NCBI GenBank assembly: GCA_001805695.1
Contig: MHGT01000007.1
Coordinates: forward strand, 19,001 to 51,068
Origin: Omnitrophica WOR_2 bacterium RIFCSPHIGHO2_02_FULL_67_20
Lineage (GTDB): Bacteria; Omnitrophota; Gorgyraeia; Aquiviventales; Aquiviventaceae
Reading direction: 5' to 3'
DNA length: 32,068 bases
Under the pieces are notes generated by a model. That model was not told where the DNA came from. It searched no databases and saw only the letters and a program-made list of their open reading frames with translations. Every line of letters begins with the position of its first letter. Position 1 is the first letter of the stretch. Below, one piece after another: positions 6,417 through 32,028 of this stretch. The translations under genes and the position numbers were made by a program.

Positions 6417-8710
<2,294 letters not shown>

Positions 8711-26437: not shown

Positions 26438-26570
26438 GTGCTGGAAGTCCTGTACTACCCTGAAGGGAGCCGCGTGGCTGGTTCACAGCGTTGAGAAGAA
26501 GAGCGCGAAAACGCCAAGGGATGATCTTGAGCTCGCAAGAAGGAGGCTAAAGGAGGTGACGGCTCGATGA
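26438..26570 (+). pseudogene. RelE/HigB-type (Gp49-like) toxin, internally deleted
   Basis: Behind GGAG and at the expected distance from the operator, a GTG starts a frame reading 'VLEVLYYPEG', typical of the first strand of phage-derived Gp49-like toxins. It then runs out of frame to a stop. In the +1 frame from about 26474 the sequence reads 'WLVHSVEKKSAKTPRDDLEL' and 'ARRRLKEVTAR', the characteristic C-terminus of the same family, and its stop overlaps the antitoxin ATG as in intact loci. About 60 central residues holding most of the catalytic fold are missing, so the toxin must be inactive. Confidence 0.6.
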
Positions 26571-26869
26571 GAGGCTTCGACAAGCACTTGCATGAACTAC
26601 TGGAAGCGCACCCGGAAGCGGCATTGGAGCACGCCAAGCTGTTCGCCGAGCTTCCGCTGCCGACGCAGCTGGCCATCATGCGCCGCCGAAGGAAGCTGTC
26701 TCAACGCGCCTTGGCAAGAAAGCTGAGGGTGCGTCAGCCTCATGTGGCTCGGACCGAAAGCGTCCGTCACGACCCACGCATCTCCTCGGTTGTCCGGGCC
26801 GCTAAAGCGGTTCGCTGCCATGTTCTGCTCGTACCGGATGAAGAGCTAAAACGGATCGCGGTGGCGTAA
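26567..26869 (+). CDS. Xre-family antitoxin (HigA-like), orphaned
   Basis: The 100-residue protein has an N-terminal helical part (about 1-40) and a helix-turn-helix at about 41-80: 'RRKLSQRALARKLRVRQPHV'. This arrangement is usual for antitoxins paired with Gp49-like toxins. The ribosome site AAAGGAGGTGA (26548-26558) is near perfect. The gene is intact while its toxin is decayed, so it may persist as a repressor of its own promoter or as an anti-toxin against a related toxin elsewhere. A strong terminator follows. Confidence 0.82.
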   Translation: MRGFDKHLHELLEAHPEAALEHAKLFAELPLPTQLAIMRRRRKLSQRALARKLRVRQPHVARTESVRHDPRISSVVRAAKAVRCHVLLVPDEELKRIAVA

Positions 26870-26885
26870 CAGTCAGGCGTTATTC

Positions 26886-26917
26886 ACGGCCCGTCGGATG
26901 ACCGGCGGGCCGTTTTT
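26886..26917 (+). terminator. Rho-independent terminator of the antitoxin operon
   Basis: ACGGCCCG (26886-26893) pairs with CGGGCCGT (26906-26913), with an inner CGG/CCG, followed by five T residues. It is 16 bases after the antitoxin stop and is the clearest intrinsic terminator of the window. Confidence 0.85.
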
Positions 26918-27133
26918 GTGTCCGTGAGAAGCAGGTAGGAGTAAAATAAACTGGTTACTTGTGCCCGGCGCAAGATGGCGCTGAAGCTGCTGAAGGAACT
27001 GAATGGGTATGAATAAGTGTTTCAGCGCGAGCAGGAAATGGTAATGTGGCATCGGAAGTTCCCTGGAATTCCTTGATCATTCCTAAGGTGGTGCCGGATA
27101 AGCAGTGGTCCGTGACGACCCGAGAGCAGTCTG
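26918..27133. other. Gap with a short unrecognised coding fragment
   Basis: About 216 bases without a convincing gene. At roughly 26965-27016 a short frame reads 'ARRKMALKLLKELNGYE' before a stop; it looks like the end of a broken gene, but I do not recognise it. Nothing else stands out. Confidence 0.3.
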
Positions 27134-27757
27134 ATGAGCAACCAAAGAGCCAATAGCGGAGAGCATGATGCTTGGAGAGTGCTCTTGCCGGTCATCATTG
27201 GTGGAGTGCTCGCAACAGTTGGCGGCATCGTAAGCCAGTATTGTGCGTCGCAGTTTCAATTCTCGACTGAAGCTCGCATCGAGAAGATTCAGGAACAGCG
27301 CCAGGTCTTTGCGCGGCTCATGGGGCGGAAGTTTGCCACCAAGCAACTGCATGTCTCTCGTTACGAGGCGCTCGTCTTTTCTGATTATCACGAGGCGCGT
27401 TGGAAGCGCGCTGGCTCGCCGAACGATTCTCTCGACCTGCAAGAGGCACAGCGCTGGATGCACCGTAGCGAGGATCTTGTTTTCGAGATCGTAAGGAACA
27501 ACCAAATCCTCTTTGAAGACATCGGAGTCGCCCGTGCGCTGTTCCCCAATACGCCGCGCCTTCGCGAATTGGTGGATCGGATTTACAGCTTCAAGGCCCT
27601 GAAAATGTCACAACCTCCAGATGATGCTTCGTTGGAGGAGTTGGTCCAGTGGAAGGACGAGTCTGTTCGGCAGCTACAGTCGGTGGTTGATCGCGAATAC
27701 GGAGAACCAATCGATGAGCTTCTGGTCTACCTCTCGCAGCAGCTTCCGATGGATTGA
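27134..27757 (+). CDS. Unrecognised single-pass membrane protein
   Basis: A 207-residue protein with one membrane helix at about 15-37 ('WRVLLPVIIGGVLATVGGIV') and a charged, mainly helical soluble part (about 45-200), likely cytoplasmic, with possible coiled-coil content. I recognise no enzymatic motif. Similar single-helix orphans are frequent in genomic islands. GC content and codon use are lower than in the genes before 26.3 kb, consistent with acquired DNA. Only a weak ribosome site (GAGAGC) is seen. It stands alone between the terminator and a repeat-rich gap. Confidence 0.65.
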   Translation: MSNQRANSGEHDAWRVLLPVIIGGVLATVGGIVSQYCASQFQFSTEARIEKIQEQRQVFARLMGRKFATKQLHVSRYEALVFSDYHEARWKRAGSPNDSLDLQEAQRWMHRSEDLVFEIVRNNQILFEDIGVARALFPNTPRLRELVDRIYSFKALKMSQPPDDASLEELVQWKDESVRQLQSVVDREYGEPIDELLVYLSQQLPMD

Positions 27758-27806
27758 GTTCGGTGGCGGAGCTCTCGAAAGATTTGCCTAACCGAGGTAT
27801 ACACCC

Positions 27807-27840
27807 GGAACGGAATTCCGGTGACACAATACTATTTCCG
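27807..27840. repeat. REP-like dispersed element around CGGAATTCCG
   Basis: A palindrome CGGAATTCCG is followed by GTGACACAATACTATTTCCG. The minus strand would encode the peptide 'GNSIVSPEF', which I have met as a recurring spurious translation in unrelated genomes, so the element is probably one of the widespread REP-like repeats mobilised by REP-associated transposases. No transposase gene is nearby. Confidence 0.45.
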
Positions 27841-27895
27841 AAATGAATAAGCCTCTCGCGGTCGTTACGTACGGATGTTCCCTCGACTTGCTCTG

Positions 27896-27912
27896 CGGCC
27901 GCTTCGCGGCCG
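27896..27912. repeat. GC-rich hairpin CGGCCGC-TTC-GCGGCCG
   Basis: A perfect 7-bp stem with TTC loop, followed by an A/T-rich AAATAAAA on the plus strand. On the minus strand it is preceded by T-rich sequence, so it is not a normal terminator in either direction. Confidence 0.4.
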
Positions 27913-27921
27913 TCAAATAAA

Positions 27922-28080
27922 ATGTGGATGAGGGGTCCGGTTGTTCCCTCGTCGCGGATCTCGGCCGTCGGCCTCGACCGCTCCTCAGTTTGGGAGGAAC
28001 ACCTTAGTAATATGTGGATGTGGGGTCCGGTTGTTGCCTCGTCGGAGATCTCCGCCTTCGGCGTCGACTCCTCCTCGGCA
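27922..28080. repeat. Tandem pair of structured elements, 90-base period, with compensatory changes
   Basis: Copy 1 starts at 27922 and copy 2 at 28012, both with ATGTGGATG and then GGGGTCCGGTTGTT. About 60 bases align well. Each copy contains a two-part stem: the inner hairpin is GGCC-GTC-GGCC in copy 1 and CGCC-TTC-GGCG in copy 2, and the outer stem is GCGG/CCGC in copy 1 and GGAG/CTCC in copy 2. The differences fall on both partners of the same base pairs, so pairing is kept. There is no convincing gene here; an antisense frame of 187 codons crosses the region but is explained by the repeats. Confidence 0.6.
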
Positions 28081-28150
28081 TCAACCATAGGTCTGGAGTG
28101 AGGATGGTCCTCAGATGAGTAAGAGCATTTTTCTCCAGACCTATGGTTGA
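28081..28150. repeat. Perfect 18-bp inverted repeat; right arm is leader copy A
   Basis: TCAACCATAGGTCTGGAG (28081-28098) and CTCCAGACCTATGGTTGA (28133-28150) enclose 34 bases that hold a small inner hairpin GAGGA-TGG-TCCTC. The right arm continues into the palindrome CTATGG-TTGA-CCATAT (28141-28156). The stretch 28130-28155 matches 31879-31904 at 22 of 26 positions. Confidence 0.7.
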
Positions 28151-28156
28151 CCATAT

Positions 28157-28279
28157 GTGTCTAAAAGGGGGATTCCTGATAGGGAGATTTGGTGGAGGAG
28201 ACCAAGAAGGCTTGGTAGCGCTTCCTTAGTGCTTCAGACGGTGGCTGAGGGGTTGCAGGTGGCGCTGGCCTCGACGTAA
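28157..28279 (+). CDS. Possible 40-residue small protein (copy A)
   Basis: A GTG directly after the palindromic leader opens a 40-codon frame whose end reads 'VAEGLQVALAST'. This resembles the end of the small frame after leader copy B ('LADGFRLVLAGIELK' at 31892-32026). It stops 15 bases before the next membrane-protein gene. Very short and without a ribosome site, so it may equally be a decayed gene or chance. Confidence 0.22.
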   Translation: MSKRGIPDREIWWRRPRRLGSASLVLQTVAEGLQVALAST

Positions 28280-28294
28280 CCAGGGAGCCGTAAA

Positions 28295-28675
28295 ATGGTG
28301 GTCAACGAGGCGTTCGGCTGGTTGTGGATTGTGCTGGGTTTCGCTTCAGGAACGCTCCTGGGGCTGAAGTTCCAGAGCGAAAGCTGGCTGGGAGGCTACG
28401 GTTCTCACAGACGGCGACTGATTCGCCTGGGCCACATTTCCTTCCTGGGACTTGGATTTTTGAACATCCTGTTCGCACATAGTCTTCCGCAACTTCGCCT
28501 GAGCCAGGCATGGTTATCGCTGGCTTCGTGGAGTTTGATGCTCGGAGGTGTGACCATGCCAGTGTGCTGTGGCTTGATGGCATGGCGGAAGAATCTGCAA
28601 CCAATTTTCGCCATCCCAGTCGTTGCCCTTCTCATCGGTGCGTTCCTGGTGCTGATCGGTATGGTGCAGCCATGA
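28295..28675 (+). CDS. Small four-helix membrane protein (unrecognised)
   Basis: A 126-residue protein with four predicted membrane helices (about 7-25, 42-62, 70-90, 100-122). 'LIRLGHISFLGLGFLNILFA' in the second helix looks conserved in style, with a His and Asn inside the membrane. I do not recognise the family. AGGGAG stands 8 bases before the ATG. The stop overlaps the ATG of the radical SAM gene (ATGA), so the two are translated together, which suggests a shared pathway at the membrane. Confidence 0.75.
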   Translation: MVVNEAFGWLWIVLGFASGTLLGLKFQSESWLGGYGSHRRRLIRLGHISFLGLGFLNILFAHSLPQLRLSQAWLSLASWSLMLGGVTMPVCCGLMAWRKNLQPIFAIPVVALLIGAFLVLIGMVQP

Positions 28676-30063
28676 AAGTCGGCTTCATCGCCATGAGTGG
28701 TGTGCGAGCGTACAACGAGGAACTCACGCGAATTGGGCTGACGCTTCCTGGTTTTGTCGAACGCAGCCAGGTCATTGCTTCATTGCCGAGCCTTTCACTT
28801 CTGACATTGGCGGCGATGACTCCACCGCCAATCGAGGTTGAGTATCGTGAGATCAAAGATTTGCGAAACACACCACCCCTTCCTACCGATTACGATCTGG
28901 TCGCCATCTCGTCCTTCTCTGCCCAAATCTACGAAGCCTACCAAGTCGCCGATGAGTATCGCAGACAGGGAATCCCTGTGGTTCTTGGCGGGCTTCATGT
29001 CAGCGTATTACCTGAAGAAGCGAAAACACATTGTACAAGTGTGGTAGTTGGCGAAGGTGAAATATCATGGGGGAAGGTTGTTGCCGATTTCGTTGCAGGG
29101 AAGCTCCAAGACTATTACACCCCTGCTGGGGAGTCGTACAACTTGGCAGACGCTCCGATTCCCCGTTACGAATTGCTAGACATCGAGCAATACAACCGGC
29201 TGACAGTCCAAACCAGTAGAGGCTGTCCTCACCGCTGCGATTTCTGCGCTAGTTCCATTCTGTTGACCCCCAAGTACAAGGTCAAACCTGTTGAACAGGT
29301 CATCGCCGAGATTCGAAGGATCAAGGCGATCTGGAAGCATCCATTCATCGAGTTCGCTGACGACAACAGCTTTGTAATTCGAGAGTATTACAAACGCCTG
29401 CTGCGTGCGCTCAAAGATGAAGGGCTTCGTTGGTTTACGGAAGCAGACATCTCCGTTGCCGAGGATGAGGGGTTGCTGCATCTGATGCGTGAAAGCGGCT
29501 GTCGGCAGGTGCTCATCGGCTTGGAAAGTCCCACACCGCAGGGCTTGGATGGCGTCGAGCAGCGGCGAAACTGGAAACTGAAGAAACTGCCGGACTACGA
29601 GTCAGCGATTCGTACCATTCAAGGGCATGGGATCACTGTGGATGGATGCTTCATCTTGGGACTGGATGGAGATGGTGAAGACATCTTTGATCGCGTCTAC
29701 GAGTTTGTCGAGAATACAGGATTGTATGAAGTGCAACTGACCGTACTGACGCCATTTCCTGGCACGCCGCTCTATCACCGCCTGAGACAGGAAGGGCGTT
29801 TACTCGAAGATCGAGCCTGGCACAAATGCACGCTCTTTGATGTGAATTACGTGCCCAAGCAGATGTCGGTTGAAAGGTTGGAACGTGGATTGGTGGAGCT
29901 ATCAAGAAGGATTTACGATAGTGCGTTTATTCGTGATCGAAGGAGACGCTTTTTCAAGACGCTGCGGAGAAGTGGAGTGGAGTGGTTGCAAAAAATGGAG
30001 GAGGGATGGGGCGATGAGTATCGGGACGATCAAGAAGCTGTTTGTGATCGCCGCGCTGTATGA
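28672..30063 (+). CDS. B12-binding-domain radical SAM protein
   Basis: The 463-residue protein has an N-terminal Rossmann-like domain of the cobalamin-binding type (about 55-135: 'DLVAISSFSAQIYEAYQVAD', 'GIPVVLGGLHVSVLPEEA', 'VVVGEGE') and a radical SAM barrel with the [4Fe-4S] ligands Cys185, Cys189 and Cys192 in 'RGCPHRCDFC'. Like many class B relatives it lacks the DxHxxG His, so cobalamin would bind without a His ligand or not at all. 'TPFPGTPLYHRL' near residue 360 is typical of this group. Relatives modify lipids, hopanoids, antibiotics or chlorophyll precursors; the substrate here is unknown. The membrane proteins on both sides favour a lipid. GC content is lower than the core genes. 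Confidence 0.9.
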   Translation: MKVGFIAMSGVRAYNEELTRIGLTLPGFVERSQVIASLPSLSLLTLAAMTPPPIEVEYREIKDLRNTPPLPTDYDLVAISSFSAQIYEAYQVADEYRRQGIPVVLGGLHVSVLPEEAKTHCTSVVVGEGEISWGKVVADFVAGKLQDYYTPAGESYNLADAPIPRYELLDIEQYNRLTVQTSRGCPHRCDFCASSILLTPKYKVKPVEQVIAEIRRIKAIWKHPFIEFADDNSFVIREYYKRLLRALKDEGLRWFTEADISVAEDEGLLHLMRESGCRQVLIGLESPTPQGLDGVEQRRNWKLKKLPDYESAIRTIQGHGITVDGCFILGLDGDGEDIFDRVYEFVENTGLYEVQLTVLTPFPGTPLYHRLRQEGRLLEDRAWHKCTLFDVNYVPKQMSVERLERGLVELSRRIYDSAFIRDRRRRFFKTLRRSGVEWLQKMEEGWGDEYRDDQEAVCDRRAV

Positions 30064-30394
30064 TTTTGTTCTGGGTGTAGTCTTTTTGGTGGCTTGGAAG
30101 CAGGTCTACAACTATTTCGGGGTGACGCTCCCGAACCACGATGGCTACGTGCAATTTGGGGCGGCACTGGTGGCAATCTTCGGGGTTGGGTTTTGGCTTG
30201 TGGCGCAGAACCCTGAGCGCAACCGTGACATCATCAAAATGGGTGTCCTGTTGAAAATCGCATATTCGGGCGTAGTGCTTGGACACCACTTCTTCGGGAT
30301 GGTTCCAGGCGTGTGGGTTCCGTTTGCCTGGTGCGATCTTGTTTTTCTAGCGTTATTCGTAGCGGCACTGCGTGCCCTGCCATCAAGGGCGTAG
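30014..30394 (+). CDS. Small four-helix membrane protein with conserved polar residues (unrecognised)
   Basis: The 126-residue protein has four membrane helices (about 8-28, 44-62, 73-92, 102-120). Motif-like stretches are 'YFGVTLPNHDGYVQFGAAL', 'NPERNRDIIKMGVLLKIAYS' and 'HHFFGMVPGVWVPFAWCDL', which I believe recur in a family of unknown function. The gene starts 50 bases inside the radical SAM gene, behind GGAGGAGGG, so it is coupled to it. With the gene at 28295 it encloses the radical SAM enzyme between two small membrane proteins. Confidence 0.78.
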   Translation: MSIGTIKKLFVIAALYDFVLGVVFLVAWKQVYNYFGVTLPNHDGYVQFGAALVAIFGVGFWLVAQNPERNRDIIKMGVLLKIAYSGVVLGHHFFGMVPGVWVPFAWCDLVFLALFVAALRALPSRA

Positions 30395-30437: not shown

Positions 30438-30650
30438 ATGAATATGACGAAATCCATACATTTAATCACTTACGGCTGTCAGATGAATGAAAGAGATTCC
30501 GAGGAGGTGCTCGGGATGCTGACGGCGCAGGGCTACGAGATCGCCGGGCAGCCGGAAGACGCGGACGTCATCCTCCTGAACACCTGCTCGGTACGAGCCC
30601 ATGCCGAGGAGCGGGCGTTTGGGAAGCTTTCGGGTAGAGAATATTGTTGA
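30438..30650 (+). pseudogene. miaB: MiaB (tRNA methylthiotransferase), N-terminal fragment only
   Basis: Sixty-odd codons match the start of MiaB: 'HLITYGCQMNERDSEEVLGM' with the first cluster Cys, and 'ADVILLNTCSVRAHAEERAF' with the second. MiaB adds a methylthio group to the isopentenyl-A37 of tRNAs and is normally about 440 residues with a radical SAM domain. After 'GKL' (about position 30630) homology stops and the frame ends with 'SGREYC'. The fragment is GC-rich like the core genes, whereas the sequence from 30633 on is AT-rich. The gene was therefore cut by an insertion or deletion at this point. The remainder is not in the window. Confidence 0.72.
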
Positions 30651-30682: not shown

Positions 30683-31867
30683 ATGGAATACATCACTAGA
30701 CTGCTGGAACAGAAAATCCGACGGGCCCTCCATCGCAATAGAAGCATCCTGCTCTTCGGGGCCCGGCAGACCGGCAAGACCACGCTGATCAGCCGCTTTC
30801 ACGCGGATCTGGTCATCACCCTCGTGAGGCCGGACATCCGTCAGCGGTATGAAAAGTCACCACAGCTACTGGCCGGTGAGGTGGAGGCGCTCGCCCCCAC
30901 AGCCGCGAACACACGTCCGCTGGTCGTTGTCGATGAAGTGCAAAAAGTGCCAACGTTGTTGGATGTGGTGCAGGACCTCATTGACCGGGGCCGCGCCAAT
31001 TTTGTGCTGACGGGGTCCAGCGCTCGAAAACTTCGCCGCGGCGCCGTCGTCAATCTCCTGCCGGGGCGCGTGGCCACGTTCAGGTTAGATCCGTTCAGTT
31101 TGCGGGAAGTGCCCGCACAGGACGTGCATGAGCGCCTGCTGTACGGGTCGTTGCCCGGCATGCTGGCGGTGCCGGATCGTGCAGATCGAGAAACCGATTT
31201 GGAATCGTATGTGACGACGTATCTGGAAGAAGAGGTGCGGGCAGAGGCGCTTGTGCGGAATGTGGGCGATTTTGCCAGGTTTCTTGAGCTGGCCGCATCC
31301 GAATCCGGCAACATCGTCAACTTGAGAAAATTGTCTCAGGAGATCGGCGTGTCCCATACGACGATCGGGGCCTACTACCAAATTCTCGAAGACTGCCTGA
31401 TCGCCGAGCGGATTGAGCCCGTGACCCACAGCAAGACGAGGAAGAAACTGACCAAATCCGAAAAATACCTGTTCTTTGATTTGGGGGTCCGGCGTCTGGC
31501 AGCCCGAGAAGGCACGAAACTGCCGCGCGATACCTTCGGGCGGCTGTTTGAGCAATTCGTTGGTCTGGAACTGGTTCGGTGCGCCCATGCTGCGCACCGA
31601 ACCCTCGCCATCCGCTTTTGGCGTGATCCGGACGGCCCGGAAGTGGATTGGGTCATCGACGATGAGGGGGCCTATGCCCCCGTGGAAGTGAAATGGACGG
31701 ACCATCCTCGATCCGGCGACATCCGCCATCTGGAAGTGTTCCTCGACGAATATCCCTCGGCCAGGGCCGGGTACATCGTGTGTCACGTGCCGCGTAAAAC
31801 CAAGCTGAGCCGCCGCGTCGTCGCGCTGCCCTGGCAAGCCATTGACGAGCTGATCCCTGCGTCATGA
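30683..31867 (+). CDS. AAA ATPase with DUF4143 C-terminal domain
   Basis: The 394-residue protein has an AAA_14 P-loop domain: Walker A 'GARQTGKT' (26-33), Walker B 'VVVDEVQK' (81-88) and sensor 'FVLTGSSARKLRRG' (107-120). A winged-helix-like linker follows ('NLRKLSQEIGVSHTTIGAYY'), then DUF4143 with 'KYLFFDLGVRRLA' and a nuclease-like end 'GPEVDWVI...PVEVKW' (Asp ... Glu-x-Lys, PD-(D/E)XK pattern). This family is frequent in mobile regions of bacteria and archaea; its role is not established, although defence or toxin-like functions have been suggested. It sits immediately behind the broken miaB, and intermediate GC content suggests transfer. Confidence 0.9.
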   Translation: MEYITRLLEQKIRRALHRNRSILLFGARQTGKTTLISRFHADLVITLVRPDIRQRYEKSPQLLAGEVEALAPTAANTRPLVVVDEVQKVPTLLDVVQDLIDRGRANFVLTGSSARKLRRGAVVNLLPGRVATFRLDPFSLREVPAQDVHERLLYGSLPGMLAVPDRADRETDLESYVTTYLEEEVRAEALVRNVGDFARFLELAASESGNIVNLRKLSQEIGVSHTTIGAYYQILEDCLIAERIEPVTHSKTRKKLTKSEKYLFFDLGVRRLAAREGTKLPRDTFGRLFEQFVGLELVRCAHAAHRTLAIRFWRDPDGPEVDWVIDDEGAYAPVEVKWTDHPRSGDIRHLEVFLDEYPSARAGYIVCHVPRKTKLSRRVVALPWQAIDELIPAS

Positions 31868-31878
31868 CCCGCGCGATC

Positions 31879-31905
31879 TTTCTTCAAACCTATGGGTGAC
31901 CATAG
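31879..31905. repeat. Palindromic leader, copy B
   Basis: CTATGG-GTGA-CCATAG (31890-31905) is a perfect 6-bp palindrome with 4-base spacer, embedded in a stretch matching 28130-28155. It overlaps the possible start codon at 31892, a position suited to autoregulation. Confidence 0.6.
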
Positions 31906-32026
31906 TGGTGCAATACCTGGACTCCCCGCACTATCCAGACAGGCTGTTGCGGAGGACGCCAACCAAGTGTTCGAGGCGCTGGCCGATGGGTTCCGCCTTG
32001 TGCTGGCAGGAATAGAGTTGAAGTGA
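31892..32026 (+). CDS. Possible 44-residue small protein (copy B)
   Basis: An ATG inside the palindromic leader opens 44 codons: start 'MGDHSGAIPGLPALSRQAVA', end 'FEALADGFRLVLAGIELK'. The C-terminal half looks like a regular amphipathic helix. Another ATG follows 2 bases after the stop. I do not recognise it. The parallel with copy A raises it above chance, but it is short and has no ribosome site. Confidence 0.38.
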   Translation: MGDHSGAIPGLPALSRQAVAEDANQVFEALADGFRLVLAGIELK

Positions 32027-32028
32027 TC

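Follow-up and report, generated by a model that had tools for sequence, protein, structure and literature searches.

Covarying hairpins in an Omnitrophota genome look like the ends of small DNA units stacked at the front of miaB

Towards the right-hand end of the window, by which we mean the whole analysed stretch of 32,068 nucleotides from contig MHGT01000007.1 of Omnitrophica WOR_2 bacterium RIFCSPHIGHO2_02_FULL_67_20 (here G000), pieces of the start of the tRNA-modification gene miaB alternate with hairpins and other genes, all on the plus strand. Segment A (27812..27877) consists of a leader beginning GGAATTCCGGTGACACAATAC and the miaB start MNKPLAVVTYG (ATG at 27843), closes with the core ACGTACGGATG (27867-27877), and resembles the leader and start of the intact miaB in a related genome (G020, L021/L093). 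Directly after this core stands the first F-type hairpin (REP1, 27878..27913), followed by two copies of a degenerate start-like segment, B, both ending in CCGGTTG (27918..27943 and 28012..28033), each with a further hairpin behind it, F1 (27944..27981) and F2 (28034..28071). B was considered as a gene, since it reads M..SKLNVEGSSGC in several other genomes, yet it is degenerate in the window. Segment C (28081..28150) forms an 18-bp stem, with the miaB start MSKSIFLQTYG (ATG at 28115) as its right arm; it is broken at its core ACCTATGGTTG (28139-28149), and the E-type left end of what we take as the next cassette occupies 28150..28272. The cargo at 28295..30394 comprises a 126-aa ORF, a radical SAM/B12-binding protein (ORF 28510-30063) and an ORF at 29870-30394. 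The next miaB start, beginning MTKSIHLITYGCQMN, continues for about 50 further codons of a truncated miaB copy (30444..30626, core at 30468-30478), of which the last 112 nt are nearly identical to the intact miaB of the same genome. An AAA_14/DUF4143 ATPase gene (30683..31867) then overlaps by its stop (ATGA) the ATG of the miaB start MTRAIFLQTYG (31864..31898, core ACCTATGGGTG at 31888-31898), and the E-type left end of a further putative cassette (31899..32027) lies just before the contig end at 32068. Farther to the left, at 26567-27016, a HigA-like HTH gene is followed by a D-type tail lacking a core, probably a further decayed cassette end.

An earlier note on this DNA had described the F1/F2 region as two tandem copies with a 90-base period, and this is borne out (27918-27986 and 28008-28076, identity 86%). 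The stems pair as it claimed, GCGG/CCGC and GGCC/GGCC in copy 1 and GGAG/CTCC and CGCC/GGCG in copy 2, with an additional unvarying TC/GA step in both, and the compensatory differences that it reported between the copies amount to 3 pairs altered on both sides. Folded singly, the copies do modestly better than shuffled sequences on the plus strand (z -1.7 and -1.4), with a clearer advantage on the minus strand (z -2.3 and -3.9). A search of window positions 27000-29000 against Rfam returned zero matches up to an E-value of 1. The statement that no gene explains the stretch is right in a narrow sense only, since the flanks of the hairpins are fragments of the miaB start.

Two more places with hairpin copies were found in the genome of the window, and a covariance model built from 8 copies was run on 27 genomes of the same family, whose titled members are Candidatus Omnitrophota from groundwater; like all data used here, they are metagenome assemblies. 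The model gave 8 matches with E < 1e-9, in 3 genomes, including one strong match absent from its input (G009:C129, E 1.2e-10), and the weaker matches in the 27 genomes were mostly short stem fragments. The earlier note took a lack of further copies, or copies with lost stems, as refuting its reading; further copies exist and their pairing is kept. Across the 8 copies, 96.3% of pairing cells are filled by pairs (83.5% in shuffles), 3 pairs show changes on both sides, and the covariation score reaches 0.404, compared with 0.172 for shuffled sequences and no more than 0.082 for slid pairings. Most of these changes form one block that divides two alleles, one carried by win1, L002, L092b and L083 and the other by win2, L045, L090b and L092a, with one further change in L083. 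Because each allele occurs in several genomes, the independent compensatory events are few, and the window pair is better seen as two old alleles side by side than as a local duplication that drifted apart with compensation. Templated repair within a palindrome is another source of concerted changes in hairpin arms, so such changes are by themselves no proof of selection on structure. The proposal of a structured element therefore stands as far as pairing is maintained in further copies; it does not stand as an isolated structured RNA, since all 8 strong copies among the 27 genomes lie inside mosaics of miaB starts, directly after a GG-N-TG junction, at the place taken by the left ends in other inserted units. 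A hairpin recognised by a protein, the other option of the earlier note, may still apply. One of the contigs with a B-F-C mosaic of Omnitrophota type, L045 (VIKE01000083.1), is labelled Rhodocyclaceae and has probably been misplaced in that MAG. At another locus (L002, 500-1300), an ORF reading MTYYVGLDLHKSMSVLVVKDRDG, which looks IS110-like by eye, starts about 120 bases from a B-F copy, and its left end falls within a segment A leader.

Similar mosaics were found as one-directional arrays at the 5′ end of miaB, made of segments closed by a MiaB start (ATG, then seven codons, then T-Y-G). The intact miaB is preceded by 3-6 co-oriented starts with cargo between them in G021, G008 and G002, and by shorter arrays in G009 and G019. 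In each case the sequence switches just after ACNTAYGGNTG, which encodes T-Y-G and the first two bases of the following C codon, and passes either into miaB itself or into one of the recurrent left ends D, E or F and then cargo; the junction is identical to the base across many loci and genera. The pattern ACNTAYGGNTGRCCRTA was matched 19 times, in 9 of 28 genomes, and its reversed control 0 times. For 13 of these 19 matches an in-frame ATG precedes ACN by exactly 8 codons, as in MiaB itself (p ~1e-9; in a random control about 10% of sites have an ATG at any of 5-13 codons), and this spacing persists where the starts share little at the DNA level. Such constancy would follow if every start had at one time been that of miaB and, as such, had been under selection at the protein level. 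The intact miaB genes of G008, G021, G002, G009, G019 and G000 begin with the start of the upstream segment. Some cores lie away from any intact miaB, and some starts have decayed.

The left ends differ in how they relate to the core. D begins CCGTATGTGCCGTTGGCGCGAGATGGCGCTG and E begins ACCATAGTNGTNGAATACCTGGACTT, and both openings turn the core into a dyad (TAYGG-NTGA-CCRTA); F, unlike D and E, makes no dyad with it. Both D and E recur in different genera. Within the tail of E one frame shows most variation at its third codon positions and gaps come in threes, so that this tail may be the end of a gene. Considered as ends of known proteins, the tails of E and D gave zero Pfam matches even at E 10. 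E is present in 6 of 384 Omnitrophota genomes, all 6 from the family of the window; it had no plasmid match, and the D, E and F patterns had none in viral contigs.

A comparison within G000 bears on the precision of the junction. Contig C36, which carries the intact miaB of this genome, opens with 130 bases that agree with window positions 31769-31898 at 129 of 130 sites; this common stretch runs from the tail of the DUF4143 ATPase gene through the ATGA overlap into the start MxRAIFLQTYG. The two sequences part exactly at the core, C36 continuing into miaB and the window into E. To judge from this alignment, the pair would represent an occupied and a vacant version of the site within a single population, or else the same cassette end present twice; both readings need a precise junction at the core.

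The cargo of the arrays is varied and, judged from the array contents alone, contains many defence and toxin-antitoxin families. It includes ThsB-type TIR proteins, a PD-(D/E)XK protein and a zeta-type kinase (L092), TIR, PD-(D/E)XK-like and Fic proteins (L076), Fic (L082), HigB/HigA-like pairs (L083 and L181, the latter read by eye), AbiEi/AbiEii (L118), GIY-YIG and DUF488-like ORFs identified by eye (L088 and L077), and a TPR protein with a serine recombinase (L095), besides the radical SAM protein and DUF4143 ATPase of the window. The list includes nucleases, and many further ORFs are unknowns.

Their placement suggests that the F1/F2 hairpins are termini of small DNA units inserted one behind another at the front of miaB. 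F takes the place of D or E immediately behind the core, and the most economical reading is that it marks the inserted unit's end recognised by the enzyme; most likely it would serve as the DNA arm that a recombinase reads, as duplex or as folded single strand. We infer that the window pair consists of two cassette ends devoid of cargo, each a B start with an F hairpin, left between A and C. For the arrays as a whole we consider it reasonably probable that they arise from small cassettes inserted site-specifically and in tandem, each rebuilding the start of miaB; they would resemble dusA islands in their target and integrons in their cassettes. A cassette would insert at the TYGC codons of miaB, its left end being a recognition arm (D, E or hairpin F) and its right end its own leader with the first eleven MiaB codons, so that miaB would stay functional. 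The newest insertion would adjoin the miaB body, and with each such event the older starts would be pushed outward and decay. The recombinase may act in trans or may have been lost. Against this reading weigh the difference of F from D and E with no dyad at its core, the cores away from an intact miaB, the decayed starts, the lack of recombinase matches in G000, and the chance that the flank pair of G000 is a cassette duplicated.

As the enzyme, a large serine recombinase appears to be the best candidate. The N of GGNTG varies between neighbouring cores, which argues for a very short shared overlap, and a very short overlap suits the large serine recombinase family. In G025, two serine recombinase loci are found no more than about 3.5 kb downstream of cores, and the first core of L077 has a serine recombinase remnant beside it, both associations being post hoc. 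In L095 (G025) an intact large serine recombinase (6729-8552) lies beside the TPR protein in a unit that opens with core-D. The genome of the window, which is 73% complete, had zero matches to PF00239 or PF00589. A tyrosine recombinase was considered and set aside, as PF00589 gives mainly XerC/D: almost all matches are 1-2 XerC/D-like genes per genome. One truncated tyrosine integrase lies after a degenerate core on G004:C84. This contig (L096) is 3.35 kb long, has a 99-base terminal overlap and contains a single degenerate junction, which is what a free or tandem cassette should look like; besides the truncated integrase, which forms an in-frame fusion with a miaB-like start, it carries an NYN-domain gene and an ORF of 521 aa of unknown function.

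Other origins of the mosaics have to be weighed against site-specific insertion. Ordinary recombination could have duplicated the miaB 5′ region repeatedly, trapping passenger genes and leaving the hairpins as palindromes without a role. The window segment at 30444-30626, which carries on for 50 codons beyond the core as a copy of the miaB of this genome, is what such duplication would leave, and several starts are degenerate; however, the sharing of one exact breakpoint by many loci and genera, the conservation of the starts as protein and not as DNA, and the recurrence of D and E across genera make this account unlikely. We give still less credence to F and C being cis-regulatory RNA hairpins of the miaB leader, acting for example in translation control, with the extra copies as decayed leaders. 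The perfect stem of C pairs the leader with the coding start of miaB, keeps its pairing despite changes on both sides at 6 of 18 pairs among 7 sequences, and runs into an intact miaB in L083 (G009), where F and C together directly precede the gene; F covaries as well. A regulatory RNA role toward miaB is accordingly possible for C, but F is limited to 3 of 27 genomes, too few for a general regulatory role, most intact miaB genes in the family have neither F nor C, and Rfam gave zero matches in 27000-29000. Long hairpins of the C type were seen at window 28081-28150 and in L083, L088, L092, L082 and L045.

F also shares with REP/BIME elements the form of a short palindromic intergenic hairpin with varying arms, and the family has RAYT genes, which raises the alternative of a REP-type palindrome mobilised by a Y1 (RAYT) transposase. 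Y1_Tnp genes are present in 19 of 27 genomes, with one in G000, and the leader of segment A (ATTCCGGTGACACAATAC) matches the inverted repeats that flank a Y1 gene on G020:C56 (L053, 35-59 and 769-789). REP/BIME elements are dispersed, whereas F is confined to arrays, with every one of its 8 strong copies at miaB-start mosaics, and the array-bearing genome G002 has no Y1 match, so that we hold this origin to be very improbable.

Among known systems, insertion in the 5′ end of dusA comes closest to the miaB array. Genomic islands and prophages integrate in the 5′ end of dusA, with mnmE and rimO named as similar targets (PMC4482086). The target of the miaB units is likewise a single site within the 5′ portion of a conserved tRNA-modification gene, the same in several genera, and these units likewise restore the gene start. 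Unlike dusA islands they are small (~0.1-3 kb), tandem-stacked and mostly without an integrase gene, and the arrays seem to lack the tyrosine integrase that an element of the dusA type carries as its own. Integrons hold co-oriented small cassettes with toxin-antitoxin and defence cargo, one growing end and hairpin-like ends, and the miaB array is like them in co-orientation, in the kind of cargo, in its presumed single growing end and in its hairpin-like ends. The two appear to differ in their junctions (GTTRRRY in the integron, GG-N-TG at miaB as read by eye) and perhaps in the enzyme, PF00589 having no match in G000 and only XerC/D-like ones in most relatives, as judged with a general model on incomplete genomes. 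Unlike an integron, the miaB array would also grow at a housekeeping gene, with the start of that gene rebuilt at every insertion. Xer-dependent pdif modules, too, are small, recombinase-free and rich in toxin-antitoxin genes, and XerC/D is present in the family of the window as in the pdif setting; the core ACNTAYGGNTG is, on informal comparison, without resemblance to a dif site. A report of miaB cassette arrays was not found in the literature searched. We tentatively raise the possibility of a gene-capture system apart from integrons, in which recombinase-free cassettes rich in defence and toxin-antitoxin genes would be inserted serially at the miaB core, with the MiaB start rebuilt and with hairpin or dyad ends as recognition sites.

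If this is true, a little-studied phylum would stockpile defence and toxin-antitoxin genes in an integron-like manner, tied to a conserved tRNA-modification gene. The fixed core would give a handle for searches elsewhere, and the decay of old gene starts would let the order of insertion be read. Covarying hairpins, finally, could then mark the ends of recombination units instead of regulatory RNA.
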